Below, one piece after another: positions 4,366 to 27,845 of a stretch of DNA of 36,978 nucleotides. The stretch is from an uncultured bacterium (GTDB lineage: Bacteria > Actinomycetota > Actinomycetes > S36-B12). The notes below the pieces were generated by a model. The model was not told the DNA's origin, made no database searches, and saw nothing but the letters and a program-made list of their open reading frames with translations. How positions within the stretch are numbered: the stretch's first letter is position 1; each line of letters opens with the position of its first letter. The stretch lies in assembly GCA_903850745.1 (NCBI GenBank), contig CAINMH010000125.1, positions 1 to 36,978 of the forward strand. The letters run 5' to 3'. The position numbers and the translations under genes were made by a program.

Positions 4366-4375
4366 TATAAAATCC

Positions 4376-5173: not shown

Positions 5174-5189
5174 CTGCCTTTTCCTCCTA

Positions 5190-7977: not shown

Positions 7978-7979
7978 AA

Positions 7980-10575: not shown

Positions 10576-10602
10576 CGCACACCGCCTCGCAGCCGCAGAG
10601 CA

Positions 10603-11574
10603 TCACACATGCAGCACCACCTTGCCTCGCAATTGACCCTTTTCCATGGCCTCTAGGCCTTCATGGATTCTTTCCAGCGGTAGGACTCTGTCGATTATCG
10701 GAGTCACGCCGCTATGGACCAGCGCATTGGCAAGCTCCTTCAACTCGGCCGTAGTGCCGCATACGGAGCCCTGAACGGTGATCACTTTTGCCAGAATCGA
10801 CAACAGATCTGCGCCCGGCATCGCACCTGAGGTTATTCCCGACACCACGATTCGTCCGCCGAAGCGCACGCTGTCAACGGAGTGCTGCCAGGTAGCCGCA
10901 CCCACAGTCTCTATGACGAGATCGACGGGATCAGGCACGGTCTCGCCGGGAGCGAACGCCGCGTCGGCCCCTATGTCGCGCGCCCACACCCGCTTGGCTT
11001 CCTCCCGAGATGTGACCCACACTCGGAGTCCCATCATCTTTCCCAGAAGGATTGCGGCAGTCGACACCCCTCCACCGGCACCCTGAACGAGAACAGTCTC
11101 GCCAGGAACACCGTGGCCGTGAGTCGTCAGCATCCGATAGGCGGTCAGCCAGGCTGTCGGGAGACACGCGGCCGACTCCCACGAAAGTCCTGCTGGCTTG
11201 TCCACCAGATTGCGAGCCGGCACCCTGACCCGCTCAGCGAAGGTCCCCGGCACCCACTCACTGAGAATCTGCCGCTGTGGGTCCTTCGTGTCGTCGCCGT
11301 AGCCACGATCCGGGTCCCCGAGCACGGCGTGGACGATCACCTCGCGGCCGTCATCCGTGACGCCGGCTGCATCAGTCCCCAGAATCATGGGCAGGCGGTC
11401 CTCCGTGAGCCCTGCTCCGCGTAGTGACCAGAGATCATGGTGGTTGATGCTCGCTGCACGGACATTTACGGTTACCCAGCTGTCAGGTACCGGGGCCTCA
11501 GCAATGTCACCGACCTCCAATCCCCGCAGCGGATAGAGCGCATCGATTCTCTTCGCATATGCAGCTCGCATCAC
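10603..11574 (-). CDS. Zinc-binding/quinone-reductase-like MDR alcohol dehydrogenase family oxidoreductase
   Basis: 323 aa; ASINHHDLWSLRG, MILGTDAAGV, VLVQGAGGGVSTAAILLGKMMG cofactor-binding motif. Confidence 0.88.
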   Translation of the reverse strand: MMRAAYAKRIDALYPLRGLEVGDIAEAPVPDSWVTVNVRAASINHHDLWSLRGAGLTEDRLPMILGTDAAGVTDDGREVIVHAVLGDPDRGYGDDTKDPQRQILSEWVPGTFAERVRVPARNLVDKPAGLSWESAACLPTAWLTAYRMLTTHGHGVPGETVLVQGAGGGVSTAAILLGKMMGLRVWVTSREEAKRVWARDIGADAAFAPGETVPDPVDLVIETVGAATWQHSVDSVRFGGRIVVSGITSGAMPGADLLSILAKVITVQGSVCGTTAELKELANALVHSGVTPIIDRVLPLERIHEGLEAMEKGQLRGKVVLHV

Positions 11575-11583
11575 ATTTTCCCT

Positions 11584-12504
11584 TCAGACCTGATTGCCGA
11601 GACTCAATGGCACAACGCGCACGCCAAGAATGTGCTCACACACATCGATTACAAGTGGCACATCTTCCGGCCACGGACATTGACTTACGAGGGCGGACGC
11701 CGCGAAGTCCAGGTCAAATCCGGCTTCAGTTAAGCGGCGAGCTGCCAGAAGTTCACGCATCTGCGGAGTCCAAATTCCCCTTCCGCCACTACCTCGATCG
11801 GTATCACTCTTCACGACAAGATTTTCCGCTATGGCCACAAGCTCCTCTGGGACACCAAGAACTCGCGCCGCATCAAAGTCAGTTGAGACCTCAATGTGCA
11901 CTGCGAACCTTGACAGCAGCGCTTCCGAGAGGCGTCTTCCGCCAAGACTCCCAGGGTTGTACGAAGCAAGTACATAGAAACCAGGCTCAACGTGCACCGG
12001 GGCGGAGTCTGGGCGATCATCAATCCGGACAAAGTCCCGGCCGTCCATGACCGAGTGGAGAATGGTGGACACGTCCATAGGCATCGAATTGATTTCGTCC
12101 AGATACATCGGCAGTCCTTCGCGAGCAGCGATGGTCAGCGGTCCGTCGGCCCATCGCCAACCCCCGTCTTCCGTGGGCAGGTGCGTGCCTAAAAGGTGCG
12201 CAACTGTCATATCGCCGTGGCACTGCACCGTGACCAAGTCGGGAAAGGCTGCCTCAGCAAGTGCAGTCTTCCCGGAACCCGGTTCTCCGGACAGAAGCAC
12301 GAAGAGCCCGCATTCCGCTAGGCGCCTAAGCGCCGCTACATCCGAGTGACCACCAAGATCCCGCGGAAGGTAAATCTCCCCGTTGGGTCGCACGTGCGTC
12401 TTCGCGTCCGTCGAGAAGTTCTCTCCTCGCTCCGCGACGGGTCGGGTGATGGGCCGACGACGCACTCGTGTCGATCTGTCCATTGACTGCCCACCGGGGA
12501 TCAT
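11584..12504 (-). CDS. MoxR-like AAA+ ATPase (resembles the CbbQ/NirQ/NorQ/GvpN group)
   Basis: 306 aa; Walker A GEPGSGKT (12265-12288), Walker B-like LPMYLDEIN, sensor region VLASYNPG, LSEALLSRF arginine-finger region. Start could also be the internal ATG at 12483. Confidence 0.88.
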   Translation of the reverse strand: MIPGGQSMDRSTRVRRRPITRPVAERGENFSTDAKTHVRPNGEIYLPRDLGGHSDVAALRRLAECGLFVLLSGEPGSGKTALAEAAFPDLVTVQCHGDMTVAHLLGTHLPTEDGGWRWADGPLTIAAREGLPMYLDEINSMPMDVSTILHSVMDGRDFVRIDDRPDSAPVHVEPGFYVLASYNPGSLGGRRLSEALLSRFAVHIEVSTDFDAARVLGVPEELVAIAENLVVKSDTDRGSGGRGIWTPQMRELLAARRLTEAGFDLDFAASALVSQCPWPEDVPLVIDVCEHILGVRVVPLSLGNQV

Positions 12505-12507
12505 TCA

Positions 12508-13278
12508 CTACACCGCGATGCCACCGTCAAGCACGATGACGGCTCCATTCAGAAAGGAACCCGCCCGGCTGGTCATGTAGACGATCGTTCCGGCCATATC
12601 ATCGGGGCGACCGATGCGGGCCAGCGGTGTGATGTCTATGAAGTCCTGGAGGTGAAGCTCGAGGATCGGTTCAGCCGTGCGCGAAGGGAACGCGCCGGGT
12701 GCAATCGCGTTGACCGAGATGCCCCTCGGCGCGAGTACCTTCGACAGGTGCTTCGTGAGGTGATGCAGCGCTGCCTTGGCCGCCGGGTACGGGTAGGTGT
12801 CGAGAAAAGGCGGCTTGATCCCATCGATGCTACCGATATTCACCACACGCGCCGGATCCTCCATCGAGCCAGCTGCCTCCAGCAGCGGTATGAAAGCCTG
12901 CGTCATCAGGAACGGCGCACGCAGGTCGAGGTCGATGACTGCATCCCACGCCTCGACAGTGAACTCCTCCAGTGGTGATTGGATCATGCGCCCGGCGTTG
13001 TTCACGAGAATATGCAATTGATCTTCTTGCTCCGCGAATTCCGCAACTAGCCTCTTGATCTCATTTGGATCTGCTAGATCGGCAACGATAAAAAACGCAT
13101 CTCCGCCTGAATCTTTAATTTCGGCTACAGCCCGCGCACAGTCATCGGCACTGCGCGACACGATGCATACTCGCGCACCAGCGTCGGCTAGTCCTTGAGC
13201 AAGCATTCGCCCAATACCGACGCTCGCCCCCGTAACCAGGGCAGTCTTACCGCTAAGATCAAACAGAGTAGCCATCAA
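12508..13278 (-). CDS. SDR-family NAD(P)-dependent oxidoreductase (candidate cis-diol dehydrogenase or ketoreductase)
   Basis: 256 aa; TGASVGIG, NNAG, YPAAK (YxxxK), C-terminal LNGAVIVLDGG. Confidence 0.93.
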   Translation of the reverse strand: MMATLFDLSGKTALVTGASVGIGRMLAQGLADAGARVCIVSRSADDCARAVAEIKDSGGDAFFIVADLADPNEIKRLVAEFAEQEDQLHILVNNAGRMIQSPLEEFTVEAWDAVIDLDLRAPFLMTQAFIPLLEAAGSMEDPARVVNIGSIDGIKPPFLDTYPYPAAKAALHHLTKHLSKVLAPRGISVNAIAPGAFPSRTAEPILELHLQDFIDITPLARIGRPDDMAGTIVYMTSRAGSFLNGAVIVLDGGIAV

Positions 13279-14123
13279 ATGGTTTCCCCAAAGAAGTCAA
13301 CGACCAGTTCGCGGAATCTATCCGCGTGCTCAATCTGAGTCCAGTGTCCACACTTCCCGAAAGCATGCAACTGCGCGTTCGGAATAGTGTTAAACATGTG
13401 CATTGAGTTAGCGAAAGGAACTACGCGATCATCCCGCCCGTGAATAATTAGCGTCTCATTCGGTAGCGATGCCAACTGCTCGTCCGACACGATCTGCGCA
13501 TCCAGGTGGCGCTGCAGCGGTTCGGGAAACACACGCTCAAAAGCTTCTTGGGCTCCGGGCCTGATCGTCGCCTGGTAGCGCAGTTCGGCTAATTCGTCGG
13601 TGACCAAATCGCGGTTGTAGGCCATAATGTCCATCACGCGCTTCATGTTTTCCACTGACGGCTTGTACTGCCAGAGTTCCGCGAGGTTGTCATTCAGTGG
13701 CATCGGGACGCCACCCGCTCCCATGAGGACTATGCGATCAAAACGGTCTGGATAGTGAATCGCAAGATGAAGCGACAGCCCTCCACCGAAAGAGTTGCCG
13801 ACAAGATGTGTCTTCTCGATACCCAGTTGGTCAAGGAGACTCATCATCTGGGAAATCCACGTGTCGAAGATCCTAAATTCGAGGTCGTCCGGAGTCTCGG
13901 TGTATCCGAAGCCAACCATGTCCGGAACGATCACTCGGAAATGCTCCGAAAGTTGCGGCATGATTCCGCGCCAATTCGCCCAACCGCTGACTCCGGCTCC
14001 CGAACCATGCAACATGAGCATCGCCGGACCGCTTCCCACATCGTGGTAGTTGGTCACATATCCGTCGGTGATGATGCTCTTTCCGATTTCCGGAGAAACG
14101 CTGCTCATAAGGTTTCCTATCAC
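13275..14123 (-). CDS. Alpha/beta hydrolase, meta-cleavage-product C-C hydrolase-like (MhpC/HsaD/BphD type)
   Basis: 282 aa; MLMLHGSGAGVSGWANW, nucleophile elbow GNSFGG, IHGRDDRVVP, FGKCGHWTQIEHADRF. Confidence 0.9.
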   Translation of the reverse strand: MIGNLMSSVSPEIGKSIITDGYVTNYHDVGSGPAMLMLHGSGAGVSGWANWRGIMPQLSEHFRVIVPDMVGFGYTETPDDLEFRIFDTWISQMMSLLDQLGIEKTHLVGNSFGGGLSLHLAIHYPDRFDRIVLMGAGGVPMPLNDNLAELWQYKPSVENMKRVMDIMAYNRDLVTDELAELRYQATIRPGAQEAFERVFPEPLQRHLDAQIVSDEQLASLPNETLIIHGRDDRVVPFANSMHMFNTIPNAQLHAFGKCGHWTQIEHADRFRELVVDFFGETI

Positions 14124-14178
14124 TAGTTTCGGGTTACTCGGTCAACTCTGTTCCTGCAGGTGGATCAATGACGAACGG

Positions 14179-15516
14179 TCAGACGCCCACGTCCTCGCGC
14201 GTTCGCGTCAGGGTGTCCACAACGGTGTAGGCGATCGTTCGAACAGCCTTCATCACATCGTCGATGGAGGCCACACCCATGCCCCCAAGCCCTGCCTTGA
14301 GCTCCTCGGGCGCATGGGCTGGTGGCATCGGATAGCCGACTCGGGCCGTTGGCACGCCCAGTACGCGGATCATGGTTCCGTCCGTCTGGCCCGCCTGATA
14401 CGGCGTGCTGACGTAGGGCTCTCCAGTCTCCACTTCGAAACCGCGTTGAGAGGACTGGATGATCCAGTTGTCCGGCGAAGTGGCACCCCCCGGCATCGAG
14501 CCGTACATCTCCCACGCGATCTCGAAGTCAGGGTGATTCGCCTTTATCGACTCCATAAGTTGATGGAACTGATGGCGTACCTGCGCCGGCGAGGTCCGCG
14601 GACTGATCCGCACGTCGAGAAAGATCTCCGTCGTTGCTGGCGGGAATGCCGGACGCGTGGGATCCCCAGCACGAACCGCCGAGATCCAGCCCTCCGGGTT
14701 GATGAAGCCGTCTCGGTTGCGCACCGTGTAGACCGGAAGCCACTCCTCGATCTCCTGAATGATGGTTGCGGCCGGGATAATCGAGGCGCGGAATCCAGGC
14801 GTACCGCGGGTGATTCCGGCGTATCCGAAGTCTCCATACACAGAGACCTTGAACCAGCACATTCCCGGCTCTTCGGGAAAGACTCCTGCGCGTGGCTTCA
14901 TTAGCACGCAGAAGTCTGGATACAGGCCGCGGTTGAGGAGATGATAAACACCGAGACTGATGCCGTACGCGTCACGATGCATCGCGGTCCACGGCATATT
15001 TCCGCCTGCGAAACCGATCGCCAGATCGCCCGTGAAACCAACGCCTGCATCCTTGACTGCATGCACGATCTCGGTGAGTCCAGCGACCATGCACTTGGGA
15101 TTGGTCGCCCCAAGCCCGATCACCAAGTCTCCATCGACACGAGCCTTAGGGATCATGTCTTCGCGCAGGGCCTTTGCTACATACGGGATGTCGCGCTCAG
15201 GGTCGATATGGGTATCAATCGGCGAATAGAGCAGCAGCCGGGCTCCCTCGCCTGATCCCAGGATCTCGCCATATGCGTTGCCTGTCGCCGCCGAGATCTC
15301 CTGATAGTGCGCATCAATACCGACCACGTCACGAAGGTGTGCAGCCATGAACTCCGAGGCCGGACGTTCGGCGCCGGTGGGGCTATGTATGTCGATCACG
15401 TCCACCAGCAAATTGCGCATGCGGTCAGCATTGAGATGCGCGAGAACAGCCTCGAAGATCTCCTGACGTTCCGGCGTGAGAGGCAGAGCGTTGGTTGTGG
15501 TGGGCACCTCTTCCAT
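14179..15516 (-). CDS. M20-family peptidase/deacylase-fold protein with degenerate metal-site motifs
   Basis: 445 aa; M20 layout (IDIHSPTGAERPASEFMAAHLRD..., C-terminal YQAGQTDGTMIRVLGVPTARVGYPMPPAHAPEE); canonical HxD, D and EE positions are altered (see findings). Confidence 0.85.
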   Translation of the reverse strand: MEEVPTTTNALPLTPERQEIFEAVLAHLNADRMRNLLVDVIDIHSPTGAERPASEFMAAHLRDVVGIDAHYQEISAATGNAYGEILGSGEGARLLLYSPIDTHIDPERDIPYVAKALREDMIPKARVDGDLVIGLGATNPKCMVAGLTEIVHAVKDAGVGFTGDLAIGFAGGNMPWTAMHRDAYGISLGVYHLLNRGLYPDFCVLMKPRAGVFPEEPGMCWFKVSVYGDFGYAGITRGTPGFRASIIPAATIIQEIEEWLPVYTVRNRDGFINPEGWISAVRAGDPTRPAFPPATTEIFLDVRISPRTSPAQVRHQFHQLMESIKANHPDFEIAWEMYGSMPGGATSPDNWIIQSSQRGFEVETGEPYVSTPYQAGQTDGTMIRVLGVPTARVGYPMPPAHAPEELKAGLGGMGVASIDDVMKAVRTIAYTVVDTLTRTREDVGV

Positions 15517-16814
15517 CAGGGCGCCGTGGGGAGGTCGGGAATCGCACTGATCCCAAGGTCGAATGTCATTGTGCAGACAAGTTCGAGCAGCGCCTGATCG
15601 GAGTTCTGGGGTCCGATCACCTGCAGTCCGAGGGGTAGTCCCCGTGGGCCGACCCCTACGGGCATTCCCGCCGAGGGAAGGCCAGCGGTACTCGCAAATC
15701 GATTGAAAGCCGGATCGCCCGTGGACGCGAGAGTCTCCGGGGCCTCACCCGGCGCAGCCAAGGTGATGACGACGTCGAATTGCCCGAAGACGTGTGCAGC
15801 AAAGACCGTCGTCTGCGCCAGTACTGAGCGATAGGACTCGATCTCGTCAGCACTCAGGGCATGCGCCTCTGCGATCGTGTCCTTCAGGAGGTCGGAGATC
15901 TTTGCCGGATCCGGTGAGATCATGTCACGCAGATACCACCCCGCCTCGAGGCTCTGGATCGTCGCGTGAGCGATCTGCAGGGCCGCGAGCTCCTCGGGTA
16001 CGTCCACTTCGTCCACGGATGCGACGACTCCCCGTAGTCGTTGCTCCACATCGTCGAGCATTGCCGCTGCCGCTGGCTGCGCACGATCGAACCAAGGTCC
16101 GCGCAGCACGCCCACCCTCAAATCAGCAAGAGGCGGCAGAAACCTGATTCGGGTAGGCGTCCCGTCGGGACGCGGACTGGCAAGAACACCGTCGAGACGA
16201 ATGAGATCCTGCGGGTCCCTCGCGAAACCGCCGAGGGTATCGAACGTCAATGCCACGGGCAGGACCCCGTTGAAGGGCCACCGGTTGAAGGTGGGCTTGA
16301 AGGTGAACACCCCGCAGAATGAGCCCGGTCGGTTCACCGAGCCCGCGGTCTGGGTGCCTAATGCGATCTGTACCTGCCCGTCGGCCACTGCGGCAGCAGA
16401 CCCAGCCGAAGAACCACCCGGTGTGTGGTCAGGGTTATGCGGGTTCATCGTGATGGTCGGCTGATATGTCGCGAACTCAGTAGTCGTCGTCTTGCCCATG
16501 ATCACTGCACCAGCTTCACGCAGACGTCGAACCGCCTCAGCATCCGCACTGGGCTGATGAGAGATCCATGCCGCAGAACCGTAGGAGGTCGGCTGATCGC
16601 CGGTCTCAATGATGTCCTTCAGACCGACAGGGACACCATGAAGAGCAGATCGTGGTTCGACTGCATCTGCGGCCCGCGCCTGGGCAAGTGCGTTTTCGGC
16701 ATTGAGATGGGCCCATGCGCGCACCTCGCCGTCTCGCTCGGCGATACGACTCAGGCACGCACTGACTGCATCTTCGCTTGTAGTGGTGAGAGAAGGTGTG
16801 CTCACAGATGACAT
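15516..16814 (-). CDS. Amidase-signature family amidase
   Basis: 432 aa; catalytic Lys region GVPVGLKDIIETG, TPGGSSAGSAAAVADGQVQIALGTQTAGSVNRPGSFCGVFTFKPT; Ser-cisSer-Lys triad apparently intact. Confidence 0.94.
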   Translation of the reverse strand: MSSVSTPSLTTTSEDAVSACLSRIAERDGEVRAWAHLNAENALAQARAADAVEPRSALHGVPVGLKDIIETGDQPTSYGSAAWISHQPSADAEAVRRLREAGAVIMGKTTTTEFATYQPTITMNPHNPDHTPGGSSAGSAAAVADGQVQIALGTQTAGSVNRPGSFCGVFTFKPTFNRWPFNGVLPVALTFDTLGGFARDPQDLIRLDGVLASPRPDGTPTRIRFLPPLADLRVGVLRGPWFDRAQPAAAAMLDDVEQRLRGVVASVDEVDVPEELAALQIAHATIQSLEAGWYLRDMISPDPAKISDLLKDTIAEAHALSADEIESYRSVLAQTTVFAAHVFGQFDVVITLAAPGEAPETLASTGDPAFNRFASTAGLPSAGMPVGVGPRGLPLGLQVIGPQNSDQALLELVCTMTFDLGISAIPDLPTAP

Positions 16815-16817
16815 TGA

Positions 16818-17696
16818 TCAGCCCTTGACTAGTTCGTGGCCCCAGCGCATGGGTGCCCGCCATGTCTTGACTTCCCAGACCTCGTCGTCAATGACAATGC
16901 CTCCATTGCCGACTTCCATGGCGAATCCGCTAGGGCTCGTGATGTAGAAGGAAGTCATTGCGTCGTTCGTGTGCCGGCCGAAGTCCATCGTCAGAGGAAC
17001 ACCACTGCGAGTCATCAGATCGTAAGCACGACCAGTGTCATCGAGATCGTTGACTTCGACCATGAAGTGGTTGAACTGACCGCCCTTCTGGCCGAAGCAC
17101 TCATTCATGATCGCAAGGCTGTGATGGCGACCATTGCAATGGAAGAACGTCGCATCCGCACCGTCCCAGACGATGTAATCGGAGAGCTTGAACCCCAGGA
17201 CGTTGAGGTAGAAATCGACCATTCCCTTGTAGTCCTCCGCGATGACCACCAGGTGGCCAAGGCCCATGTCACCGGTCACGAAGCCCGAGACGATACCTGA
17301 GGGCCGGAACTCGTTGTGGTCCCACGTAGCCCCGTAACGCACGGCCAAGGGGAAACCCTGCGGGTCCTTGAAGGTGATGGACTCGGTCCAATCGCGCGTG
17401 TCGTTGTCGCCATGCTCGTGCCACTCGACGGCGATGCCCGCTCCCTCTACCTGCGCAGCGATTTCACGCAGCTCCTCGGGTGTATCCACTTCCCATGTCA
17501 TGAGGCGCAAGCCATCATCTTCGGAGGGATGGAATGCGAGTCGGTATTCGAGGTCGTCGTAGCGAATGAGCATCGGGTCGGTCTCAGCCGTGCGTGGGCG
17601 CTCCTCCATCCCAAGCATGCCGACAAGGATGCGGCGCCACTCAGGGATGTTCGTGGTGTTGAACGCCAGAGCTCCAAGACGAGCAACTGCGGCCAT
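16818..17696 (-). CDS. VOC-superfamily extradiol (catechol 2,3-) dioxygenase
   Basis: 292 aa two-domain VOC protein; likely metal ligands in GHLVVIAED, FNHFMVEV, SPSGFAMEVG. Confidence 0.92.
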   Translation of the reverse strand: MAAVARLGALAFNTTNIPEWRRILVGMLGMEERPRTAETDPMLIRYDDLEYRLAFHPSEDDGLRLMTWEVDTPEELREIAAQVEGAGIAVEWHEHGDNDTRDWTESITFKDPQGFPLAVRYGATWDHNEFRPSGIVSGFVTGDMGLGHLVVIAEDYKGMVDFYLNVLGFKLSDYIVWDGADATFFHCNGRHHSLAIMNECFGQKGGQFNHFMVEVNDLDDTGRAYDLMTRSGVPLTMDFGRHTNDAMTSFYITSPSGFAMEVGNGGIVIDDEVWEVKTWRAPMRWGHELVKG

Positions 17697-17716
17697 GGTC
17701 TACCTCCTACGAATGG

Positions 17717-18772
17717 TTAACTGGGAAGGAACTGCTCGGAGCGAACGTCAGACAAAGACAGGCCGAACCCCGCCATTGCCTGTTCGGCGGCGGCGATCAT
17801 CCCCGGTGGGCCGCACAGGTAGGCGATGGTCCCTTCTGGGGCGTCGGTCCGCGATAGCACGGTCACCGGATTGCCCTTGAGGACCCCTGGGATGGTCGAA
17901 TCCTGCTCGAGCGAGATGCGGACCTGAAGCGTCGGGGTGAAACTTGCGCGAGCTCGGAGCTCATCCAGATGGAAGAGGTCCGCCTCCTTGACGCAGCCGA
18001 ACACCAGCTGGATCGGCGGAGCAGGACGAAGCAGGCGAAGCCGGTCGATCATCGACAGCATCGGCGCAAGACCAGTGCCACCGGCGACAAGCAGGTGAGG
18101 TCGCTGTGTCGGCTCAAGCACGAAAGAGCCAAGGGGGCCCTCCATCTCGAGAACATCGCCCGCTTTCGCACGGTCACGCAGGTAGTCCGACATGGTGCCC
18201 TTCGGAAGAATACGAATCAGGAAAGTGAGTTTGTTGGGTTCGTGCTCACCGGATGCCATCGAGTACGAGCGCCAGTCGTCTGTGCCGGGAACCCTGATTC
18301 GGCAGTACTGGCCAGCTGTGAATTTCAGCCGCATCGTCTTGGGGACCTTGACTTCGATCTCGGCCACCGACTCGGCAAGTCGGGTGATGCGCCCGATCTT
18401 CGCGTTGAAGAACACTGGAGGATTGGCGAGCAGCAGCGACGAGGGGTAGCCCATGTCGAACTCTGCATCTGAGTGCGCCAGTGTCTGACACAGCAAACGC
18501 TGTCCCCGAGAGGCCTCCTCCGAAGTCAGGACTGTGACGACGTCCGGCTTGGGCTGGGCATCTCCGACAAGCAGTTGCGAGATGCACGTGGCGCAGGTCC
18601 CGACCGTGCACTGACTCGCTAGATTCACGCCCCGAGCCTTGGCCGCCGCGAGGATCTCCTGACCTTCAGCGACCTCAATGGTGCGAGACTCGCCATCGCT
18701 GAAGTGGAGCACCACGCGACGAATGGAGGACCCCGAGGGGTCCTCCATCGTCGTCATCGAACTGCTCATCAA
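17717..18772 (-). CDS. Oxygenase reductase: N-terminal plant-type [2Fe-2S] ferredoxin plus FAD/NAD(P)H ferredoxin-reductase domains
   Basis: 351 aa; CTVGTCATC...LLC 2Fe-2S motif, RIRVPGTDDWRSYSMAS flavin motif, LLVAGGTGLAPMLSM, YLCGPPGM. Confidence 0.94.
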   Translation of the reverse strand: MMSSSMTTMEDPSGSSIRRVVLHFSDGESRTIEVAEGQEILAAAKARGVNLASQCTVGTCATCISQLLVGDAQPKPDVVTVLTSEEASRGQRLLCQTLAHSDAEFDMGYPSSLLLANPPVFFNAKIGRITRLAESVAEIEVKVPKTMRLKFTAGQYCRIRVPGTDDWRSYSMASGEHEPNKLTFLIRILPKGTMSDYLRDRAKAGDVLEMEGPLGSFVLEPTQRPHLLVAGGTGLAPMLSMIDRLRLLRPAPPIQLVFGCVKEADLFHLDELRARASFTPTLQVRISLEQDSTIPGVLKGNPVTVLSRTDAPEGTIAYLCGPPGMIAAAEQAMAGFGLSLSDVRSEQFLPS

Positions 18773-18778
18773 CCGGTT

Positions 18779-19975
18779 CTACTCCTCGTCGAAGTCAGGT
18801 GACTCGAAGAATCCACGCCCGTACTTCGATGCATGCTTGCGCCACGCGACGACCGAGAAGTCGAGATCGGATAACTGCTCGTTGTTCCAGCCATCACGCT
18901 TCTCGTAGAACTCCTCAGTGGCCTCACGCGCCATGATGTCGTTGTTGTTGAAGTCGAGAAGGCCGAGCGGCTTGAAGAAGTGTTCGTACTTCATGTCGAA
19001 CTCCTTGTCCTGATCAGGAGTTCCGCCCCAGTACGCGATGACCTCGAAGTACATGTGGTTGTGGTCATCGATCGGGACGTAGAATTCATACTGTGCGTAA
19101 TCCGGAATGGGCCAGTTCTCGACCATGAGGGTCGCCGGAACCCATGCAGAGACGCGGAAGATCTCCGGCATCCACTTGCCGCGCGCCTTGATATCCGGAA
19201 CCTTCGGGTTCTCGAAGACGGGCGCGTAGTTGTCGGGGAGGTCATAGCGGTTCATGACGCCCTTGGGGCCGTCTTCGAAGTCGAGGAGTTCGGTGGCGTC
19301 TTCCTTGAGCGCCTTCATTCCCAGCGGCATCGCGCGGTCAAGTGCAACGATGATTTGGTTGTCCCAATGGACCAGCAGATGACCGGGGTCAAGCCCATTC
19401 TCAACCGCCAGGCGCCAGTTGCCATAGAGCTTGCGACGAATTCCACGCGTGATGATCCTCGGGTCCTGAAGGTGTGGAATCGCATTCGGCTTGTCAGTGA
19501 CCTTGATCGGAAGATCGGTCGAGATCGGAGGAGTTGGGTAGTCCTCATCCCCGACGAAGACCCAGATGATGCCGGCGAACTCCTCGGTCGGGTATGTCCG
19601 CGTACGCGCGTTGTCGATCAACTTGTCGTCGGGGCTGCCGACGATCGTGTCGAGGTTGCCGCTCTCCAGATTGTAGGTATAGCCGTGATACCAGCAGGTG
19701 ATGGTGCCGTCTGCAAAGCACATGGGCTTGAGGGAGAGCTTGACGCCCTTGTGGATACAGCGATCAGAGAGAGCCCAAGCCTTGCCATTCTGATCACGCG
19801 AAATCGCGATGTCGTGACCGCCGATAGTGATGCCAACCACGCCACGCTCCGCGACTTCATCACTGAAGACTCCGGGGTACCAGTGATTCGCATAACCCCA
19901 GTCGGCCTGGACATAAGGGCCGTATTGACGCGACAACTGGGAAGCCTTACCAACCTCATAGACGTTTTGGGACAT
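18779..19975 (-). CDS. Rieske non-heme iron oxygenase, alpha subunit, CarAa/2-oxoquinoline monooxygenase-like
   Basis: 398 aa; Rieske motif C73-x-H75-x18-C94-x2-H97 (19685-19759), mononuclear iron motif NWRLAVENGLDPGHLLVH, DFNNNDIMAREATEEFY. SD GGAGG upstream. Confidence 0.93.
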   Translation of the reverse strand: MSQNVYEVGKASQLSRQYGPYVQADWGYANHWYPGVFSDEVAERGVVGITIGGHDIAISRDQNGKAWALSDRCIHKGVKLSLKPMCFADGTITCWYHGYTYNLESGNLDTIVGSPDDKLIDNARTRTYPTEEFAGIIWVFVGDEDYPTPPISTDLPIKVTDKPNAIPHLQDPRIITRGIRRKLYGNWRLAVENGLDPGHLLVHWDNQIIVALDRAMPLGMKALKEDATELLDFEDGPKGVMNRYDLPDNYAPVFENPKVPDIKARGKWMPEIFRVSAWVPATLMVENWPIPDYAQYEFYVPIDDHNHMYFEVIAYWGGTPDQDKEFDMKYEHFFKPLGLLDFNNNDIMAREATEEFYEKRDGWNNEQLSDLDFSVVAWRKHASKYGRGFFESPDFDEE

Positions 19976-20040: not shown

Positions 20041-20068
20041 ACTTTACTTGCGTTAAATCGGATGTCAA
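20041..20068 (-). promoter_or_regulatory. Putative sigma-70-type promoter for the oxygenase operon
   Basis: Minus strand TTGACA (20063-20068), 16-nt spacer, TAAAGT (20041-20046); then ~60-nt leader with GGAGGAG SD before ATG 19975. Confidence 0.6.
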
Positions 20069-20077
20069 TGGGTTTTT

Positions 20078-20092
20078 ATAAAAATTTTAGAA
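20078..20092 (-). promoter_or_regulatory. Putative regulator site in the divergent promoter region (minus strand TTCTAAAATTTTTAT)
   Basis: AT-rich, partly palindromic (AAATTTTAGAAATAT at 20082-20096), 9 nt upstream of the minus-strand TTGACA at 20063-20068; near match to 22442-22457. Confidence 0.5.
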
Positions 20093-20101
20093 ATATTCCA
20101 A

Positions 20102-20130
20102 TTGATACTTCTCGAAGTCGCTGTCAGAAT
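20102..20130 (+). promoter_or_regulatory. Putative promoter for VWA gene
   Basis: TTGATA (20102-20107), 17-nt spacer, CAGAAT (20125-20130) with extended TGt; ATG 20137 lies ~7 nt downstream. Confidence 0.4.
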
Positions 20131-20136
20131 GCTCAA

Positions 20137-21753
20137 ATGTGGGGCCAACCTCAAGACGACGAAATTTGGATCGGCCTTTCTTCTCGACTGCAGAGATTCA
20201 TTGCTGCTCGTAGCGGTAGGCCGGGGGTGGTCGTCCGGATCTCACCCGAACCCATCGACGAGCGACGTATATGGCCGAGTGGGTATCAAGTAGGAATTGC
20301 GGAAGTTTTGATCGATGCGCACAGGGTGCTACAGAATTCGGACGACCCTGGCATCATTGATCCGTCCCAACCTAAGGATCGGGCCGCATTCCCGGTGCTT
20401 ACCGGCTGGCTCTGCATGGCGGCAGCGCATGTAGCGCACACCACGTGGCCCATCGACTCTCGACTCGAAGGGCCAACCGCAGCCGTCGGTCGCGGACTCG
20501 AGCAGGCACGAGCATGCGGCCGCTACCTTGCGGATCATCCGGCCGATAGACGATGGCTGCGTGCGGCAGCGCGATCCTTGTTTTCCCTTGAGGGCCAGCA
20601 GGACTTCCTCGGCCTGGTCGCCTTGTATCGGGTAGGAATTCTCAGGAGCGATGAAGTCAAGCCGCTACTGGATGCCTACACGAGTTCTCTCGCTGGGGAA
20701 GGATTCTGTTCGCTGATTGATCAGATCGACTTCGCGCTTGAGTTGGCCGACGATCAGGTAGAGGACCTTGTTGCAGCAGCACGAGGGATCACCGATCTAC
20801 TCGGCCTGCTGGACTTCGCCGGTGAGGCTGAGATTTCCCGCGAGATGGGCGCCACACTCGAAAGCATCGCCGAGCGGATCGCTCCGACTCAAGACCGAGC
20901 TCCTCAAGCTCACTTTGGAACCGCCCGAGAAGTTCAGACAGACTTTAGAATCCAAGATCACACCGCTGCGATGGGAGCATTCCTGCGTGACCCTCACCGT
21001 CGAGCAGTCCTCGTACGGGAACCCAGCACTGAGGTTCGCACTCAGGCACGAGCGCTGCTCGCCACCCTACGTGGGGCCAGACATAGGTACCCAACCATCG
21101 ACCTTGTCGCGAGCCCGCTTCCGCCCGGACGACTCAAACTTGCTGAAGCCATGAGACTAGAGGCACAGCGGGAATCCCATGCCCGGATGACTGCGCGCCC
21201 TTGGCGGCAATTGCGCAGGCGAGATGTAGAGCAGCCGAGACTGAGAGTCGGGATCAGCTGGGATATCTCGCGATCTCAGTCCCCACTTCATCGAGAAATC
21301 GCGGATATGGTGTGGGCCGTCGCATGGACGATCGCGCGCCTGGACGGCGAAGTGGCCGCGGTAGCATGGAATTCCGGCCCCAGCCCCGTTGTCTGGCCCG
21401 GACGAATCCCCACCCACGTGGTTGAGCCCGAATGCGGCGGAGGGTCGAGCGGTTGTCCCGCCTCCCTCCGCGCGCTCAGTGGGGCACTTCGGCTCGATAG
21501 GGACGACGGGGGCCGAATTATCATTATCTTCACAGATGCGCGAAGCACACACAGGCGTTTCGTTCAGCAGGAGGTGGATCGCCTTCGGGGATACGGAGTG
21601 CCTGTTCTGTGGCTCACTCCAAGCGTCGACCCTCGGGCCCCGACTGGTTCTCTAACCCACTCTTACACGAACGGAGCGGCTTTGTCGCGGGCAGTGAGCA
21701 CGGCGCTTGAAGGCGCGCTGAGCAAAGACTACGATCTTCGAGATGCCCAGTGA
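20137..21753 (+). CDS. VWA-domain (MIDAS) protein, probable partner of the MoxR-like ATPase (NorD/CbbO/CoxE-like arrangement)
   Basis: C-terminal VWA-like domain: LRVGISWDISRSQSP with DxSxS MIDAS (DISRS, 21262-21276), IIIIFTDARSTHRRF. ORF track starts at 20062, but its first 25 codons cover AT-rich promoter DNA; Met26 (20137) preferred. Confidence 0.78.
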   Translation: MWGQPQDDEIWIGLSSRLQRFIAARSGRPGVVVRISPEPIDERRIWPSGYQVGIAEVLIDAHRVLQNSDDPGIIDPSQPKDRAAFPVLTGWLCMAAAHVAHTTWPIDSRLEGPTAAVGRGLEQARACGRYLADHPADRRWLRAAARSLFSLEGQQDFLGLVALYRVGILRSDEVKPLLDAYTSSLAGEGFCSLIDQIDFALELADDQVEDLVAAARGITDLLGLLDFAGEAEISREMGATLESIAERIAPTQDRAPQAHFGTAREVQTDFRIQDHTAAMGAFLRDPHRRAVLVREPSTEVRTQARALLATLRGARHRYPTIDLVASPLPPGRLKLAEAMRLEAQRESHARMTARPWRQLRRRDVEQPRLRVGISWDISRSQSPLHREIADMVWAVAWTIARLDGEVAAVAWNSGPSPVVWPGRIPTHVVEPECGGGSSGCPASLRALSGALRLDRDDGGRIIIIFTDARSTHRRFVQQEVDRLRGYGVPVLWLTPSVDPRAPTGSLTHSYTNGAALSRAVSTALEGALSKDYDLRDAQ

Positions 21754-22346
21754 CAACGAAGAGCAAGGGACGAATTATGAGCCGCGTTACCCCAGACTAC
21801 GAAGCCGCACGATCTTGGCACTTGGCGGACTCACAACGAGCTGAACGGGTGACGGCGTTTGAATTCGCTCTCATGCAAGTCAATGAGGCCTACCAACGAT
21901 GGGTGACCCAATCGGCCCGCCTGGTCGGACACCCAGACATCAGTTTCAATGAGGTGGTCGTCTTACACGTGGTCCGTATGCAGGAGCGAGCGAAGGATGC
22001 CGCAACGATTGCCAAACTCATTAACCGAGATGACCTTCCTAATGTTCTCTATAACCTGCGAAAGTTGGTTGGTCTCGGTCTTGTGAAAAAGGTGAAGGTT
22101 GGCTCTAGCACCCTGTTCGAGGTCACTGAACGCGGAACCCTTGAGTCGAATCGATACGCTGACCTGCGAAAAGTTCTACTCCTCGACAGTATGGAAGAGA
22201 TCGTCAACATCGACAGCAAACTTGATTCACTTATGGCTCTGATGCACGTCATGACGGGGCTTTATGACAGCGCCTCACGCGAGGTAGTCGTGATCGACCC
22301 CAAGACGGCATTCGCCAGCGAGTCTCCATCGGCCCTTCAGAAATAG
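21750..22346 (+). CDS. MarR-like winged-helix transcriptional regulator
   Basis: 198 aa; ISFNEVVVLHVVRMQERAKDAATIAKLINRDDLPNVLYNLRKLVGLGLVKKVKVGSSTLFEVTERGT is a typical wHTH; GTGA overlap with VWA stop (alternative ATG at 21777). Confidence 0.82.
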   Translation: MTTKSKGRIMSRVTPDYEAARSWHLADSQRAERVTAFEFALMQVNEAYQRWVTQSARLVGHPDISFNEVVVLHVVRMQERAKDAATIAKLINRDDLPNVLYNLRKLVGLGLVKKVKVGSSTLFEVTERGTLESNRYADLRKVLLLDSMEEIVNIDSKLDSLMALMHVMTGLYDSASREVVVIDPKTAFASESPSALQK

Positions 22347-22441
22347 CGGGTAAAACCACGCGGCCGTCCAGCCAGTGCTTTGCTTCTTCCAGGATCCCTC
22401 GCGGGAATTTTCATAAAGACCGAAACACAGTTGTTACAAAA

Positions 22442-22457
22442 TTCTATAAATTTCTAT
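22442..22457 (+). promoter_or_regulatory. Putative regulator site upstream of ABC transporter (TTCTATAAATTTCTAT)
   Basis: Overlaps a 15-nt palindromic AAATTCTATAAATTT (22439-22453; 5-bp arms); 10 nt upstream of TTGACA at 22468; matches 20078-20092 with one indel and one substitution. Confidence 0.5.
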
Positions 22458-22467
22458 GGGATTTTGA

Positions 22468-22496
22468 TTGACAGCCTATTTTGGTTGACCTAGTCT
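22468..22496 (+). promoter_or_regulatory. Putative promoter for the ABC transporter operon
   Basis: TTGACA (22468-22473), 17-nt spacer, TAGTCT (22491-22496). Confidence 0.6.
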
Positions 22497-22581
22497 GCGC
22501 GTACCGGGCGACGCCGTCGCCGAAAACGGACGGCGACAATCTCGTCGGCTAAATACGACTCCTTGGTTTAAGGGAGGCACT

Positions 22582-22626
22582 ATGCGCACCGCGCAGGAAG
22601 TAGGTCCCAAATGCAACGTCGATTGA
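22582..22626 (+). other. Possible leader ORF MRTAQEVGPKCNVD* overlapping the substrate-binding-protein start
   Basis: ATG 22582 preceded by strong SD AGGGAGG (22571-22577); stop TGA 22624-22626 lies inside the start of the next gene in another frame. Confidence 0.4.
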
Positions 22627-23756
22627 TTCCAAGCCTCTTGGCCTTAGGAGTCGTAGCCGCGACAGTTCTCGTTGGCTGTGGCAGCAGTTCGGGTGGTGGT
22701 TCCTCGACCGTCGCTCCGACGACCTCGAGCGTGCCAGCTCCGACCACGTCCGGTGGGGGCGACCCTACTGATCCGGCCATCATCATGGGCCAAGAAAACA
22801 TCAATAAGATTCTCGCTTCGTACACTGGAGAGAACTCCACCCTTCCCAATTCCTTCGGCACTGCCACGCCGAAGCCACTAAAGATCGGCTGGTCTGAGGC
22901 TCTCGACGCAAATGAGCTCAACAATCGCCTTTCTTACGCGATCCAGAAGGCCGTGGAAAAGATCGGGGGTACTCTTATCACCCTCGATGCAGGGGGCGAT
23001 CCCGCCAATCAGGTCACTCAGATCCAACAACTGATCAACCAGAAGGTCGACGGGATCATCGTGTGGCCGCTCGACGCAACGGCGCTCGTGCCCGTGCTCA
23101 CTCAGGCGAAGGCTGCCGGTATCCCCATCACGGCCATGGAGGTCACCCCGAACGGTTCCACTGATCTCGGTCCTGTCGATGGTCAAGTCATCTACGGCCG
23201 CGACCTCGGCGCCTACGTCTCGGCAAAACTGATGTCCGAACTTCACCCCGGTGCACAGGTAGCGACGAATAAGTTCTCAGTGCCGGTTCCCTCAATTGTG
23301 TACTACGCGGAGCGGGCCTCTTACTGGGCTGGTGAGTTTGGGCTTAAAGTGCTCGGCACATTTGACAACCCGAGTGACAACGTCGCTGGGGGCGAGCAGA
23401 TGGCCGGGCCTGTCATCTCTGCGAATCCCGAGATCAAGGGCTGGTTGGCCTACAACGACGCCTCGGCACTCGGCGTGACCGCAGCTGCTCGCACGGCTAG
23501 CAAGACCGTGTCATCCTTCGGCATCAACGGCGAAGACGCTACGATCCCTGCCATCGAAGCAGGTCAAATCGAGCTGACAATCCAGCCGCCTGCCGCACAG
23601 TGGGCCGAGCAACTCGTTAACGGCATTCTGCTGGTCAAGGCCGGTCAGACAATCCCGAAGTCGATCTTCGTGGGCCTCGGCAATGTCATCACCAAGCAGA
23701 CGGTGGCAAATGCCAAACCCATCAAGGACATCGTCGACGCTTACTTCGGCGGATAG
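22611..23756 (+). CDS. Sugar-type (RbsB-like) ABC transporter substrate-binding lipoprotein
   Basis: 381 aa; signal peptide with lipobox LVGC; QINQKVDGIIVWPLDATALVPVLTQAKAAGIPI, LAYNDASALG. Confidence 0.93.
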   Translation: MQRRLIPSLLALGVVAATVLVGCGSSSGGGSSTVAPTTSSVPAPTTSGGGDPTDPAIIMGQENINKILASYTGENSTLPNSFGTATPKPLKIGWSEALDANELNNRLSYAIQKAVEKIGGTLITLDAGGDPANQVTQIQQLINQKVDGIIVWPLDATALVPVLTQAKAAGIPITAMEVTPNGSTDLGPVDGQVIYGRDLGAYVSAKLMSELHPGAQVATNKFSVPVPSIVYYAERASYWAGEFGLKVLGTFDNPSDNVAGGEQMAGPVISANPEIKGWLAYNDASALGVTAAARTASKTVSSFGINGEDATIPAIEAGQIELTIQPPAAQWAEQLVNGILLVKAGQTIPKSIFVGLGNVITKQTVANAKPIKDIVDAYFGG

Positions 23757-23765
23757 TCTCACTAC

Positions 23766-25310
23766 ATGGAGCACGTCTCTAGTTCGGCATCGTCGACCCC
23801 GGGGCAACCTGGGGTCGACGATGCGCTTCTTGTGGCAACTGGGATGACCAAGCACTACGGCGGCATTCGCGCTCTTCAGGGTGCAGATTTCACGGTGTAT
23901 CCCGGAGAGATTCATGGTCTCATTGGCGAGAATGGCTCCGGCAAGTCGACCCTGTTGGGGATCCTGTCCGGTCAGACGATCGCCGACGCAGGCACTGTGA
24001 GTATCTCTGGAACCCCAATCCACTTCAGCGATACGCGCTTACTCCGCAAAAACGTCGCCATCGTCACGCAAGAACTCAGCCTCGCACTAGATCTCTCCGT
24101 GGCCGAGAACATTCTGATGTCCCACGACAAGCCCCGAAAGTTCGGCCGAATCGATTGGGCCGAGCTTTACCGGCGCGGCGCGGTTGCCCTCAAACGTCTC
24201 GGTCTAGACATTGATCCTCGTACCCAAGTTGGCACACTCCGTATCGACCAGCAGCAACTGGTCGAAATCGCGAAGGCCGTCAATCTTGAGCACCAGATTC
24301 TGATTCTGGACGAGCCCACGAGTTCTCTTACAGAGGACGCCGTATTGATGCTCGCTCGCACAATGCGCACACTTCGCGATGCGGGCACAGCAATCATCTT
24401 CGTGTCGCACCGACTCGACGAGTTCTTCGACTTCACTGATCGCATCACTGTCCTTCGCGACGGTCGCACCATCTCTACTCGAAAGACAGTCAGTTACACC
24501 AAATCAACACTCGTCGAGGACATGCTTGGCTATTCCGTGGAGCATTACGAGCGCGAAGGTGTCAAATCTGAGCGTAATGCGGACCCGCTGCTACGAGTGC
24601 TCAACGTGAACGTGGGGCACAAAGTTCACGACGCTGGATTCGAGGTTTTCCCCGGTGAGGTTGTCGGCTTGGTGGGCCTCGAAGGGGCCGGCCGCAGCGA
24701 ACTGCTCATGGCTATCTTCGGCGCCCTTCCCGAGGCCACCGGCACACTCGACATGGATGGCGCAAAGCCCCTACCCACAAGTCCTCTTCACGCGATGCGT
24801 CGGGGAATCGGCCTGGTGCCAGGTGATCGTAAAAGTGATGGCCTAATGCTTGAGATGTCTATCCAGTCCAACATCAATATCCCAAGGACAGCCGGCGGCC
24901 TTCGGTTGCGCTGGCTCAAGACGCGGAATGAATTGACTGTCGCCTCACGCACGTCTACGGCGCTGTTAATCCAGAAAGGTTCACTCGCTCGCGAGGTGGG
25001 CTCGCTATCAGGTGGAAACCAGCAGAAAGTCCTACTTGGCAAGTGGTTGGAAACAAATCCCAAGGTCCTACTCATGGACGAACCAACCCGCGGTGTCGAT
25101 GTCGGTGCAAAGCGAGAAATTCATAACATTATTTTCGATGTGCGAAATCGTGGGCTAGGAGTCGTCGTCGCCTCGTCAGATCTTGAGGAACTGATGGTCC
25201 TCAGCGACCGATTTGTCGTCATGTTCCGGGGGCAGATAGTGGGCGAAATGTCCCACAGCGAAGCAACCACCGCACGACTGTCACATATGGCCACTGGAGG
25301 TGGGACGTGA
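23766..25310 (+). CDS. RbsA/MglA-type ABC transporter ATP-binding protein (two NBDs)
   Basis: 514 aa; GENGSGKSTLL, DEPTSSL, second half LSGGNQQKVLLGKWLETNPKVLLMDEPTRGVDVGAK. Confidence 0.96.
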   Translation: MEHVSSSASSTPGQPGVDDALLVATGMTKHYGGIRALQGADFTVYPGEIHGLIGENGSGKSTLLGILSGQTIADAGTVSISGTPIHFSDTRLLRKNVAIVTQELSLALDLSVAENILMSHDKPRKFGRIDWAELYRRGAVALKRLGLDIDPRTQVGTLRIDQQQLVEIAKAVNLEHQILILDEPTSSLTEDAVLMLARTMRTLRDAGTAIIFVSHRLDEFFDFTDRITVLRDGRTISTRKTVSYTKSTLVEDMLGYSVEHYEREGVKSERNADPLLRVLNVNVGHKVHDAGFEVFPGEVVGLVGLEGAGRSELLMAIFGALPEATGTLDMDGAKPLPTSPLHAMRRGIGLVPGDRKSDGLMLEMSIQSNINIPRTAGGLRLRWLKTRNELTVASRTSTALLIQKGSLAREVGSLSGGNQQKVLLGKWLETNPKVLLMDEPTRGVDVGAKREIHNIIFDVRNRGLGVVVASSDLEELMVLSDRFVVMFRGQIVGEMSHSEATTARLSHMATGGGT

Positions 25311-26386
25311 GCAACGACCTAGAGAACGCATTGGCGACAGAAGCAGCCGGGGCCGGGGACAGTCCTGACGTAGCGCTGTCAACTCGCCCCCCGATATGGA
25401 ATCGAGTGCTCCACAGTCGTGTCACATCGATCTCGGTCCTACTCATTCTCCTGCTGGTCTTCTTCGCGATCACCCAACGCGAAACCTTCCTCACCTTCGA
25501 CAACATGGTCCTCCTGCTAATCAGTAGTTCGGTTCTGTTTTTGGTCTCTATCGGCTTGACATTCGTCCTACTCGTGGGAGGCTTCGATCTTTCGATCGGG
25601 GCCTTGATGGCTCTTACCACCTTCATTCTCGCGTGGCTCGTCAACCAGCTTTCCGTCCCGATCGTGGTTGCGATGGCCCTCACGATCATCTTCGGAGGTT
25701 TGCTCGGCTTCTTAACGAATGGTTTCCTCATCGGCCGGCTCAAACTCTCTTTCATGGTGGTAACTCTGGGCACGATGACTCTCTTCATGGGTCTGGTAAA
25801 GCTCATCTCCGGTGGTCAGACCATCGTGATCAAGTCAACGTGGCTCGTAGACACTTTCTCATTCGGCAAAGTGGTCGGAATTCCGATCCCGGTTCTATGC
25901 TCAATCGCCGTCTTTGCAATCGCAGCATTCACACTTCGGTATACCCTCTTTGGGCGCGACATCTATGCGGTCGGCGGGAATCAAAAGGCAGCACGCCTAT
26001 CTGGGATTAATGTCTCGCGAACTGTCATGCTCGCCTACGGCCTCGCAGGAGCGTGCGCAGCCTTCGGTGGATTGGTGGCGGCATCCCGGACTGGTTCTGC
26101 TGGGCCCACCATCGGCGACACCATCATGTTGCAGGCGGCCGCGGCCGTACTTATCGGTGGCACTAGCCTGCGCGGCGGTAGCGGCTCGATTCTTGGCACG
26201 GCAATCGGCGTTCTCTTCTTTGGTGTGCTGTCCAATGGACTGACTGCCGCTGGTTTCGGCACCCAATGGCAGCAGACGATTGGCGGTATCATTATTGTCG
26301 GAGCCGCTCTAGCAGATAAGGTACAGCGTGATGGCTGGGCGTCACTCGATCTTCGTATCTTCACCGCGCGCAGTCGCCGCACATGA
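25307..26386 (+). CDS. RbsC-type ABC transporter permease
   Basis: 359 aa polytopic; LVGGFDLSIGALMAL, FLTNGFLIGRLKLSFMVVTLGTM, AAAAVLIGGTSLRGGSGS. Confidence 0.95.
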   Translation: MSNDLENALATEAAGAGDSPDVALSTRPPIWNRVLHSRVTSISVLLILLLVFFAITQRETFLTFDNMVLLLISSSVLFLVSIGLTFVLLVGGFDLSIGALMALTTFILAWLVNQLSVPIVVAMALTIIFGGLLGFLTNGFLIGRLKLSFMVVTLGTMTLFMGLVKLISGGQTIVIKSTWLVDTFSFGKVVGIPIPVLCSIAVFAIAAFTLRYTLFGRDIYAVGGNQKAARLSGINVSRTVMLAYGLAGACAAFGGLVAASRTGSAGPTIGDTIMLQAAAAVLIGGTSLRGGSGSILGTAIGVLFFGVLSNGLTAAGFGTQWQQTIGGIIIVGAALADKVQRDGWASLDLRIFTARSRRT

Positions 26387-26405
26387 CCTTTGAAAGATTC
26401 GTCCC

Positions 26406-27845
26406 ATGAGTAACCCGCTTGCCGACCTCTTGCTGTCTTGGAGTCGGAGAGATGGCTCGCGACCCTGTATTCGTAACGCGAACGGCGAGGTGTGGACCTA
26501 CGGCGATCTAGCCGACCGATCAGCCCAGATTGCGAACACGCTCATCGCTCACAACGTGCAGGCCGGGGATCGTGTGGCCGTCCAGGTTGAGAAGTGTCCT
26601 GATGTGTTCACTCTCAACATCGCCTGCGCTCGCGTGGGTGCGGTGTACGTGCCTCTCAACAGCACCTACACGCACCATGAACTCCTCGGACTACTCGAGG
26701 ACGCGTGTCCGGCGCTGCTCGTCGTGGATGCCCTGCTCGACGTTCCCTTCCAGCAAGTGACTCTTGCCGCACTTCTAGAGCAGTCAGCCACGGCACCAAC
26801 CACCTACATCGACGTCGAGCGCAGCGACGACGATCCGGCCGCGATGCTCTTCACTAGCGGCACAACGGGTAAGCCCAAAGGCGCGGTTCTCAGCCAGAGC
26901 AATCTTGTCTACGGCACTTCCACGCTCAGCGCCTTCTGGGGCATGACCGAGAATGACGTATTGCTGCACACGCTCCCGGTTTACCACGTCCATGGCCTTT
27001 TCGTTGCGGGCTACAACACGCTCGTGACGGGCGGCTGCATGGTTCTCCTGTCAGCGTTCGACATCGATCGGATAGTCGCGGAGCTGCCGAACTGCACAGT
27101 GCTGATGGGCGTACCCACTCACTACACGCGGCTTCTCGCGGATGCTCGCTTCACCCGCGAACTCGTGAGCCATACGCGCCTGTTCACCTCGGGATCTGCG
27201 CCCATGCTGGCGACTACGCACGCGGAGTTCACCCAGCGCACTGGTGCACAGATCGTGGAGCGTTACGGACTCACTGAGACCTATATCCTCACCTCCAATC
27301 CCGTTGACGGTGCTCGCAAGCCCGGCACGGTCGGACTCCCGCTGCCTGGAGTTGAGCTGCGGCTCGACGGTTTGGAGACCGGGGAGATCCAGGTCAAGTC
27401 TCCGACCGTCTTCGCTGGGTATTGGAATCGACCAGAATTACGTGGCACCGAATTCAGTGCTGACGGATGGTTCAAGACTGGTGACATCGGGCGCATCGAC
27501 GCCGATGGTTACGTCGAGATTGTCGGACGCTCAAAGGACCTGATCATTACTGGTGGGCTTAATGTCTATCCGAAGGAGATCGAGCAGGCACTCGATGCCC
27601 TGCCCGGCATTCTCGAATCAGCCGTCGTCGGCCTACCGGACCCAGACTTCGGAGAGGCAGTCACTGCCGTCGTAGTGGCCGAACCCGGAAGCACCCTGGA
27701 CCCAGCAGAGATTCGCTATCAGGCCCGAGAGGTTCTCGCACCATTCAAGGTGCCGAAGTCTGTGCACGTCGTCGAGAGCCTCCCCCGTAACGCTCTCGGC
27801 AAGGTCGAAAAGGCCCGACTCCGAGAGATGCTCTCGGGTCGATAG
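26406..27845 (+). CDS. AMP-forming acyl-CoA synthetase, MatB (malonyl-CoA synthetase)-like
   Basis: 479 aa; LFTSGTTGKPKGA, ERYGLTETYILTSNPVDGARKPGTVGLPLPGVELRLD, GRSKDLIITGGLNVYPKEIE, PRNALGKVEK. Confidence 0.9.
   Translation: MSNPLADLLLSWSRRDGSRPCIRNANGEVWTYGDLADRSAQIANTLIAHNVQAGDRVAVQVEKCPDVFTLNIACARVGAVYVPLNSTYTHHELLGLLEDACPALLVVDALLDVPFQQVTLAALLEQSATAPTTYIDVERSDDDPAAMLFTSGTTGKPKGAVLSQSNLVYGTSTLSAFWGMTENDVLLHTLPVYHVHGLFVAGYNTLVTGGCMVLLSAFDIDRIVAELPNCTVLMGVPTHYTRLLADARFTRELVSHTRLFTSGSAPMLATTHAEFTQRTGAQIVERYGLTETYILTSNPVDGARKPGTVGLPLPGVELRLDGLETGEIQVKSPTVFAGYWNRPELRGTEFSADGWFKTGDIGRIDADGYVEIVGRSKDLIITGGLNVYPKEIEQALDALPGILESAVVGLPDPDFGEAVTAVVVAEPGSTLDPAEIRYQAREVLAPFKVPKSVHVVESLPRNALGKVEKARLREMLSGR

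Follow-up and report, generated by a model that had tools for sequence, protein, structure and literature searches.

The gene clusters closest to the locus described here are those for 2-oxo-1,2-dihydroquinoline 8-monooxygenase and carbazole dioxygenase, which combine a homotrimeric Rieske oxygenase with a reductase, an extradiol dioxygenase and meta-cleavage genes. A described counterpart for the regulator is Variovorax iadR/MarR_73, a MarR-type repressor of aromatic catabolism (PMC9613470); this winged-helix regulator is encoded within its catabolic locus and has its site between divergent genes. HTH_27 regulators with the same domain and gene size as the one studied here are found beside hydantoinase/oxoprolinase, TRAP/ABC transporter and luciferase-type monooxygenase genes, with uptake and hydrolysis genes adjoining and AT-rich sites by TTGACA at several of these loci. 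To our knowledge, no operator has been proven for any member of this large family. UP elements, the AT-rich docking sites of the RNA polymerase α-CTD defined by Estrem and described for mycobacteria, resemble the boxes discussed below in position and AT content; promoters of Mycobacterium tuberculosis are enriched in UP-like sequences, and the mycobacterial polymerase is stimulated about threefold by an engineered UP element (PMC5511352).

The window, by which we mean the whole 36,978-nucleotide stretch analyzed, corresponds to contig C125; the genome to which it belongs measures 2.57 Mb, is 99% complete and is split into 201 contigs. The window shares the core genes of the quinoline- and carbazole-type clusters and differs from them in an extra amidase, M20-like hydrolase, MoxR ATPase and VWA-like gene. 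Unlike iadR/MarR_73, its regulator matches an HTH_27 rather than a MarR model, and its boxes lie upstream of the −35 element; unlike the window, the HTH_27 loci just mentioned are proteobacterial and mostly belong to the EDTH recognition-helix subgroup. What emerges is ordinary local gene control, a further case of a known type.

Gene content and the regulator

The Rieske oxygenase gene (18779..19975, minus strand) encodes an enzyme of the homotrimeric type, for which the nearest structure is 2-oxo-1,2-dihydroquinoline 8-monooxygenase (E 2.5e-105). The other genes of its operon (2438..18772, minus) encode a reductase, an extradiol dioxygenase, an amidase, an M20-like hydrolase, a meta-cleavage hydrolase, an SDR, a MoxR-type AAA ATPase and CoA steps, with lower-pathway genes that reach acetaldehyde dehydrogenase and hydroxy-oxovalerate aldolase. 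On the plus strand, the transporter operon (22611..27845) encodes a sugar-type binding lipoprotein, a double ABC ATPase, a permease and an acyl-CoA ligase of the malonyl-CoA type. The oxygenase operon is predicted to break down an aromatic compound and the transporter operon to import that compound.

A third operon, on the plus strand, holds a VWA-like gene with a DISRSQS motif (20137..21753) followed by the regulator gene. The VWA-like frame is open from 20062, with ATG 20137 as the preferred start, and its match to VWA_2 is insignificant. The VWA-like protein (20137-21753, plus) and the MoxR-type AAA ATPase (11584-12504, minus) belong to separate, divergent operons within a single Rieske cluster; proteins of these two kinds often act together as metal-centre chaperones, and this pair could possibly form a maturation pair for the oxygenase.

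The regulator (21750..22346, plus; 198 residues), whose gene sits between the two boxes, had been called MarR-like in the initial annotation. That label is right in a loose sense: the protein has a winged-helix domain, matching HTH_27 (PF13463) above the cut-off at E 3.3e-12, but shows no match to MarR Pfam models at E 0.001, and the homologue from Cupriavidus has only a sub-cut-off MarR match. A single-sequence structure model reaches pLDDT 41, too poor to be used on a MarR dimer fold or ligand pocket. The same annotation proposed this regulator as the binder of both boxes on the ground of its position; synteny and the half-sites of relatives speak for that candidacy, and the likeness of the boxes does not suffice by itself.

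Two promoters and their AT-rich boxes

The AT-rich box of the oxygenase operon, TTCTAAAATTTTTAT, lies on the minus strand at 20092-20078 and is separated by 9 nt from the promoter TTGACA-N16-TAAAGT (20041..20068), in which TTGACA occupies 20068-20063 and TAAAGT 20046-20041, 16 nt apart. The transporter operon carries the box TTCTATAAATTTCTAT on the plus strand at 22442-22457, 10 nt ahead of TTGACA-N17-TAGTCT (22468..22496), in which TTGACA spans 22468-22473 and TAGTCT, 17 nt further on, ends at 22496. Re-reading the sequence returned every position and spacing as first described, and aligning the boxes returned the one gap and one substitution claimed to separate them. In the 24 nt before TTGACA, 20 are A/T at the oxygenase promoter and 18 at the transporter promoter; both promoters are unusually strong-looking, and their boxes are alike and AT-rich.

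This arrangement is rare in the genome. The pattern TTGACA-N16/17-TANNNT has seven matches genome-wide (four for the reversed control pattern), two of which are the oxygenase and transporter promoters, and these two alone have AT-rich DNA upstream; the remaining five have 7-15 A/T in 24. In a 551-kb genome sample (58.8% GC) that served for the tract and motif statistics, 24-mers with no fewer than 20 A/T account for 0.004%, and the window's only 24-nt tracts of this kind are at the two boxes. The initial annotation had seen no third copy of the box within the window, and at promoters this extends to the whole genome: allowing up to three mismatches, scans turned up a single additional match to the transporter box and five additional places resembling the oxygenase box. 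Of these six, the best two (on C91 and C7) fall inside open reading frames, and TTGACA at the proper spacing is missing from all six. Thus, by whole-genome scanning, the same box occurs at both promoters and at no other. An AT-rich spot of the genome sample that resembles the transporter box, near 3460 of stretch L056, was set aside, having a different dyad and preceding an unrelated gene; an inverted repeat TAAATTCTCTAAATA...TATTTTAGAGAATA is found there (3460-3495), just upstream of a gene for a 343-residue secreted-looking protein.

The likeness of the two boxes had been offered as ground for a single regulator, and here composition suffices. Local alignment of one box to the other scores 11, for a shuffle p of about 0.10, and among 49 unrelated AT-rich spots 7-9 align as well as the two boxes do; we therefore reject the likeness as proof of a shared operator, and it is insufficient by itself to argue for one shared regulator. 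The imperfect palindromes noticed in the boxes are likewise not significant (shuffle p 0.26 and 0.53). A search for dyads common to both promoter regions found AAAATT-N5-AATTTT-like motifs with two mismatches in total, and 40 block shuffles of the same regions gave common dyads with at least three mismatches; a common dyad of this form at both promoters is suggestive only.

A candidate divergent promoter, TTGATA-N17-CAGAAT with TG before the −10 (20102..20130, plus), is weakly predicted, sites of this type numbering three in the region against 0.9 expected from shuffles. It lies 9 nt from the oxygenase box, on the side opposite to the oxygenase promoter, and about 7 nt before ATG 20137, which would make a leaderless start of the operon holding the regulator possible. 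One box could thus serve both divergent operons, bringing the number of operons under control to three.

Other features of the transporter promoter and its presumed leader are recorded here as observations in their own right. Tandem 12-mers, ATTTTGATTGAC and ATTTTGGTTGAC, lie 17 nt apart at 22461-22489 (plus), the former covering most of the −35 box and the latter within the spacer. A possible hairpin, GTCGCCG...CGGCGAC, was spotted by eye at 22506-22541 (plus). A 14-codon reading frame MRTAQEVGPKCNVD (22582-22626, plus) with a good Shine-Dalgarno sequence AAGGGAGG runs in a different frame across the start of the binding-protein gene (22611), as a possible leader peptide or a case of translational coupling.

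Relatives of the regulator and a candidate half-site

The regulator was not detected in any of 98 relatives, nor in a further 396 genomes drawn from the phylum, and a search of 165 additional genomes of the order did not find the Rieske gene; for the M20-like hydrolase there are weak matches in another three genomes of the phylum. The absence of regulator and Rieske genes from the relatives searched leaves no close orthologous promoters for comparison. A distant syntenic cluster is present in Cupriavidus necator C39, in which the Rieske protein (44% identity to that of the window), reductase (42%), M20-like hydrolase (50%), amidase (30%) and HTH_27 regulator (37%) are encoded within about 6 kb; since this cluster keeps an HTH_27 gene with Rieske, reductase, hydrolase and amidase genes, the regulator belongs to the gene set. 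The Cupriavidus Rieske promoter is TTGACA-N18-TAATCT, and a perfect dyad, ATCGAAGTT-N6-AACTTCGAT, abuts its TTGACA.

We collected 24 homologous regulator loci and grouped them by recognition helix. The window regulator falls into a group with helix NRDD-PN-QYSLRKL, together with those of Cupriavidus, Neorhizobium, Rhizobium 11515TR and Novosphingobium; the Bradyrhizobium and Paroceanicella regulators are looser members, and the Neorhizobium, Rhizobium 11515TR and Cupriavidus regulators share NR(D/E)D..PN.QYSLRKL with that of the window. In the two nearest Rhizobiaceae relatives of the window regulator, ATAGAAATTYTAT adjoins the regulator's own promoter: ATAGAAATTCTAT in Neorhizobium and ATAGAAATTTTAT in Rhizobium 11515TR, each by TTGACA in the short region that separates the regulator from a divergent luciferase-type monooxygenase gene. 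Palindromes are present in the promoters of relatives; the window dyads do not rise above shuffles.

The two Rhizobiaceae sites and the Cupriavidus site have in common the half-site ATMGAARTT, a motif picked after several loci had been viewed, so that its p values are optimistic. On the minus strand of the transporter box, ATAGAAATT (22457-22449) matches it exactly, with a shuffle p of 0.0075 and no exact match in any of 46 AT-rich spots, and ATAGAATTT (22447-22439), 10 bp from the exact copy, has one mismatch. The plus strand of the oxygenase box carries the tandem near-copies ATAAAAATT (20078-20086) and TTAGAAATA (20087-20095), with one mismatch at best (shuffle p 0.145; 3 of 46 spots as good). 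With a motif built from the two Rhizobiaceae sites, the oxygenase box is the window's top score on either strand (11/13, plus strand, 20078); the transporter box reaches 10/13, equalled at a few other places in the window. Of the 1.10 million positions scored in the genome sample, 5 attain 11 and 27 attain 10, and 46 other AT-rich spots score at most 10.

Operators, UP elements and other explanations

Our preferred explanation, which we put at an even chance, is that the boxes serve the HTH_27 regulator (21750-22346) as operators and overlie DNA that also suits the α-CTD. These operators would be built from ATMGAARTT-like half-sites centred near −50 of each promoter, at the contact region of the α-CTD, and the regulator would be a ligand-released repressor covering that region and the −35; once the repressor had left, the same AT-rich DNA would work as an UP element, and the operator and UP-element readings can hold together. 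With the anatomy, rarity, synteny and relatives' half-sites observed above, we infer binding, the direction of regulation and a ligand, and a local regulon of two, perhaps three, promoters is probable, with binding by the regulator predicted. With 9 nt between the box at 20078-20092 and the candidate −35 of the divergent operon that includes its gene, the regulator may also control itself. The analogy to MarR-type repressors of catabolism, Variovorax MarR_73 among them (PMC9613470), makes us prefer a repressor to an activator. Several findings count against operators: the half-sites are tandem in the window and inverted in relatives; the Neorhizobium and Rhizobium sites lie downstream of −35, the window boxes upstream; the regulator relatives are only 25-37% identical; the DNA upstream of the regulator lacks ATMGAARTT in Novosphingobium, Bradyrhizobium and Paroceanicella; the half-site in the oxygenase box is inexact by one mismatch; and neither box likeness nor dyads exceed shuffles.

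The principal alternative, less probable in our view although a substantial one, is that the boxes are constitutive UP elements, docking sites for the α-CTD with no regulator bound, any regulation being exerted elsewhere. The E. coli (Estrem) UP consensus score peaks in exact register at both promoters, in the A/T-rich DNA just upstream of −35 (20/24 and 18/24). At the oxygenase promoter, the earlier caveat that the boxes might be UP elements proves quantitatively good, with 12/14 to the consensus (p 0.009 against composition-matched shuffles), a score found at just two more positions across 551 kb. The genome's RpoA α-CTD carries TVRSYNCLK and NFGAKS, in which the main DNA-contacting residues, E. 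coli R265, N268, C269, G296, K298 and S299, are, as we take it from the alignment to E. coli, kept. An UP element would not by itself make a promoter respond to the substrate. The oxygenase promoter further fits the rule AAA-N10-(16N)-NANNNT, applied to mycobacterial UP elements by Hubin et al. 2017 (PMC5511352). The transporter box, however, differs from known UP elements in its poor fit, being average (9/14, p 0.28) and without a proximal AAA, and this reading leaves unexplained the exact ATMGAARTT and its counterparts in the promoters of relatives. A different operator, the −35-overlapping pattern ATTGACANYCNATT (a degenerate ATTGAC-N-GTCAAT palindrome), is improbable as a replacement for the AT boxes. 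It is fitted by ATTGACATCCGATT (20056..20069, minus), over the −35 and spacer, as a second candidate regulator site, and by ATTGACAGCCTATT (22467..22480, plus); its only two exact matches in the genome are these window promoters, the Cupriavidus Rieske promoter with its perfect palindrome ATTGACAGTCAAT shares it over −35 and spacer, and the 12-mer repeats of the transporter promoter lie over the same region. Yet the pattern was defined from these very sites, and TTGACA is the plain −35 consensus, so the extra information in it is small; beyond TTGACA, only five of the seven positions common to the window sites are kept in Cupriavidus (counted by hand, p about 0.01), and other HTH_27 loci offer no good match.

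Two explanations dispense with a local regulator and with UP elements. A chance pairing of two unrelated AT-rich promoter upstreams would agree with the p of about 0.10 for box likeness alone given composition, but such AT-rich tracts account for only about 0.004% of 24-mers and both are in register with rare TTGACA promoters, and we judge coincidence very improbable. Silencing of foreign genes by an Lsr2-type protein on AT-rich DNA we hold to be scarcely credible: the absence of regulator and Rieske genes from the relatives searched means that the cluster may have been acquired, but Lsr2 (PF11774) was not found in the 99%-complete genome, which largely refutes this idea, the boxes span roughly 30 bp, and GC content is the same in the window (0.590) as in the genome sample (0.588).

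Operators of the HTH_27 regulator thus remain our preferred reading, which would link a regulator of a large family to a concrete half-site in two window promoters and three relatives. It predicts joint switching of the oxygenase, transporter and regulator genes in an uncharacterised pathway of N-heteroaromatic type, a handle for finding the pathway's substrate. A broader claim, that the NRDD-PN-QYSLRKL subgroup, found with monooxygenase-hydrolase-transporter clusters in Actinobacteria and in beta- and alpha-proteobacteria, recognises ATMGAARTT half-sites, and here does so over UP elements in competition with the α-CTD, is tentative, and we regard it as rather unlikely in full.

Finally, the EDTH helix group consists of regulators beside hydantoinase and TRAP genes, and AT-rich CGATAAAAT-type sequences abut TTGACA in this group. 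Upstream of HTH_27 genes or a neighbouring operon at L085, L086, L098, L092, L093 and L099, TTGACA is followed by an AT-rich TCGATAAAATG-type sequence; near hydantoinase/oxoprolinase genes, this combination is a likely operator motif of that HTH_27 subgroup.
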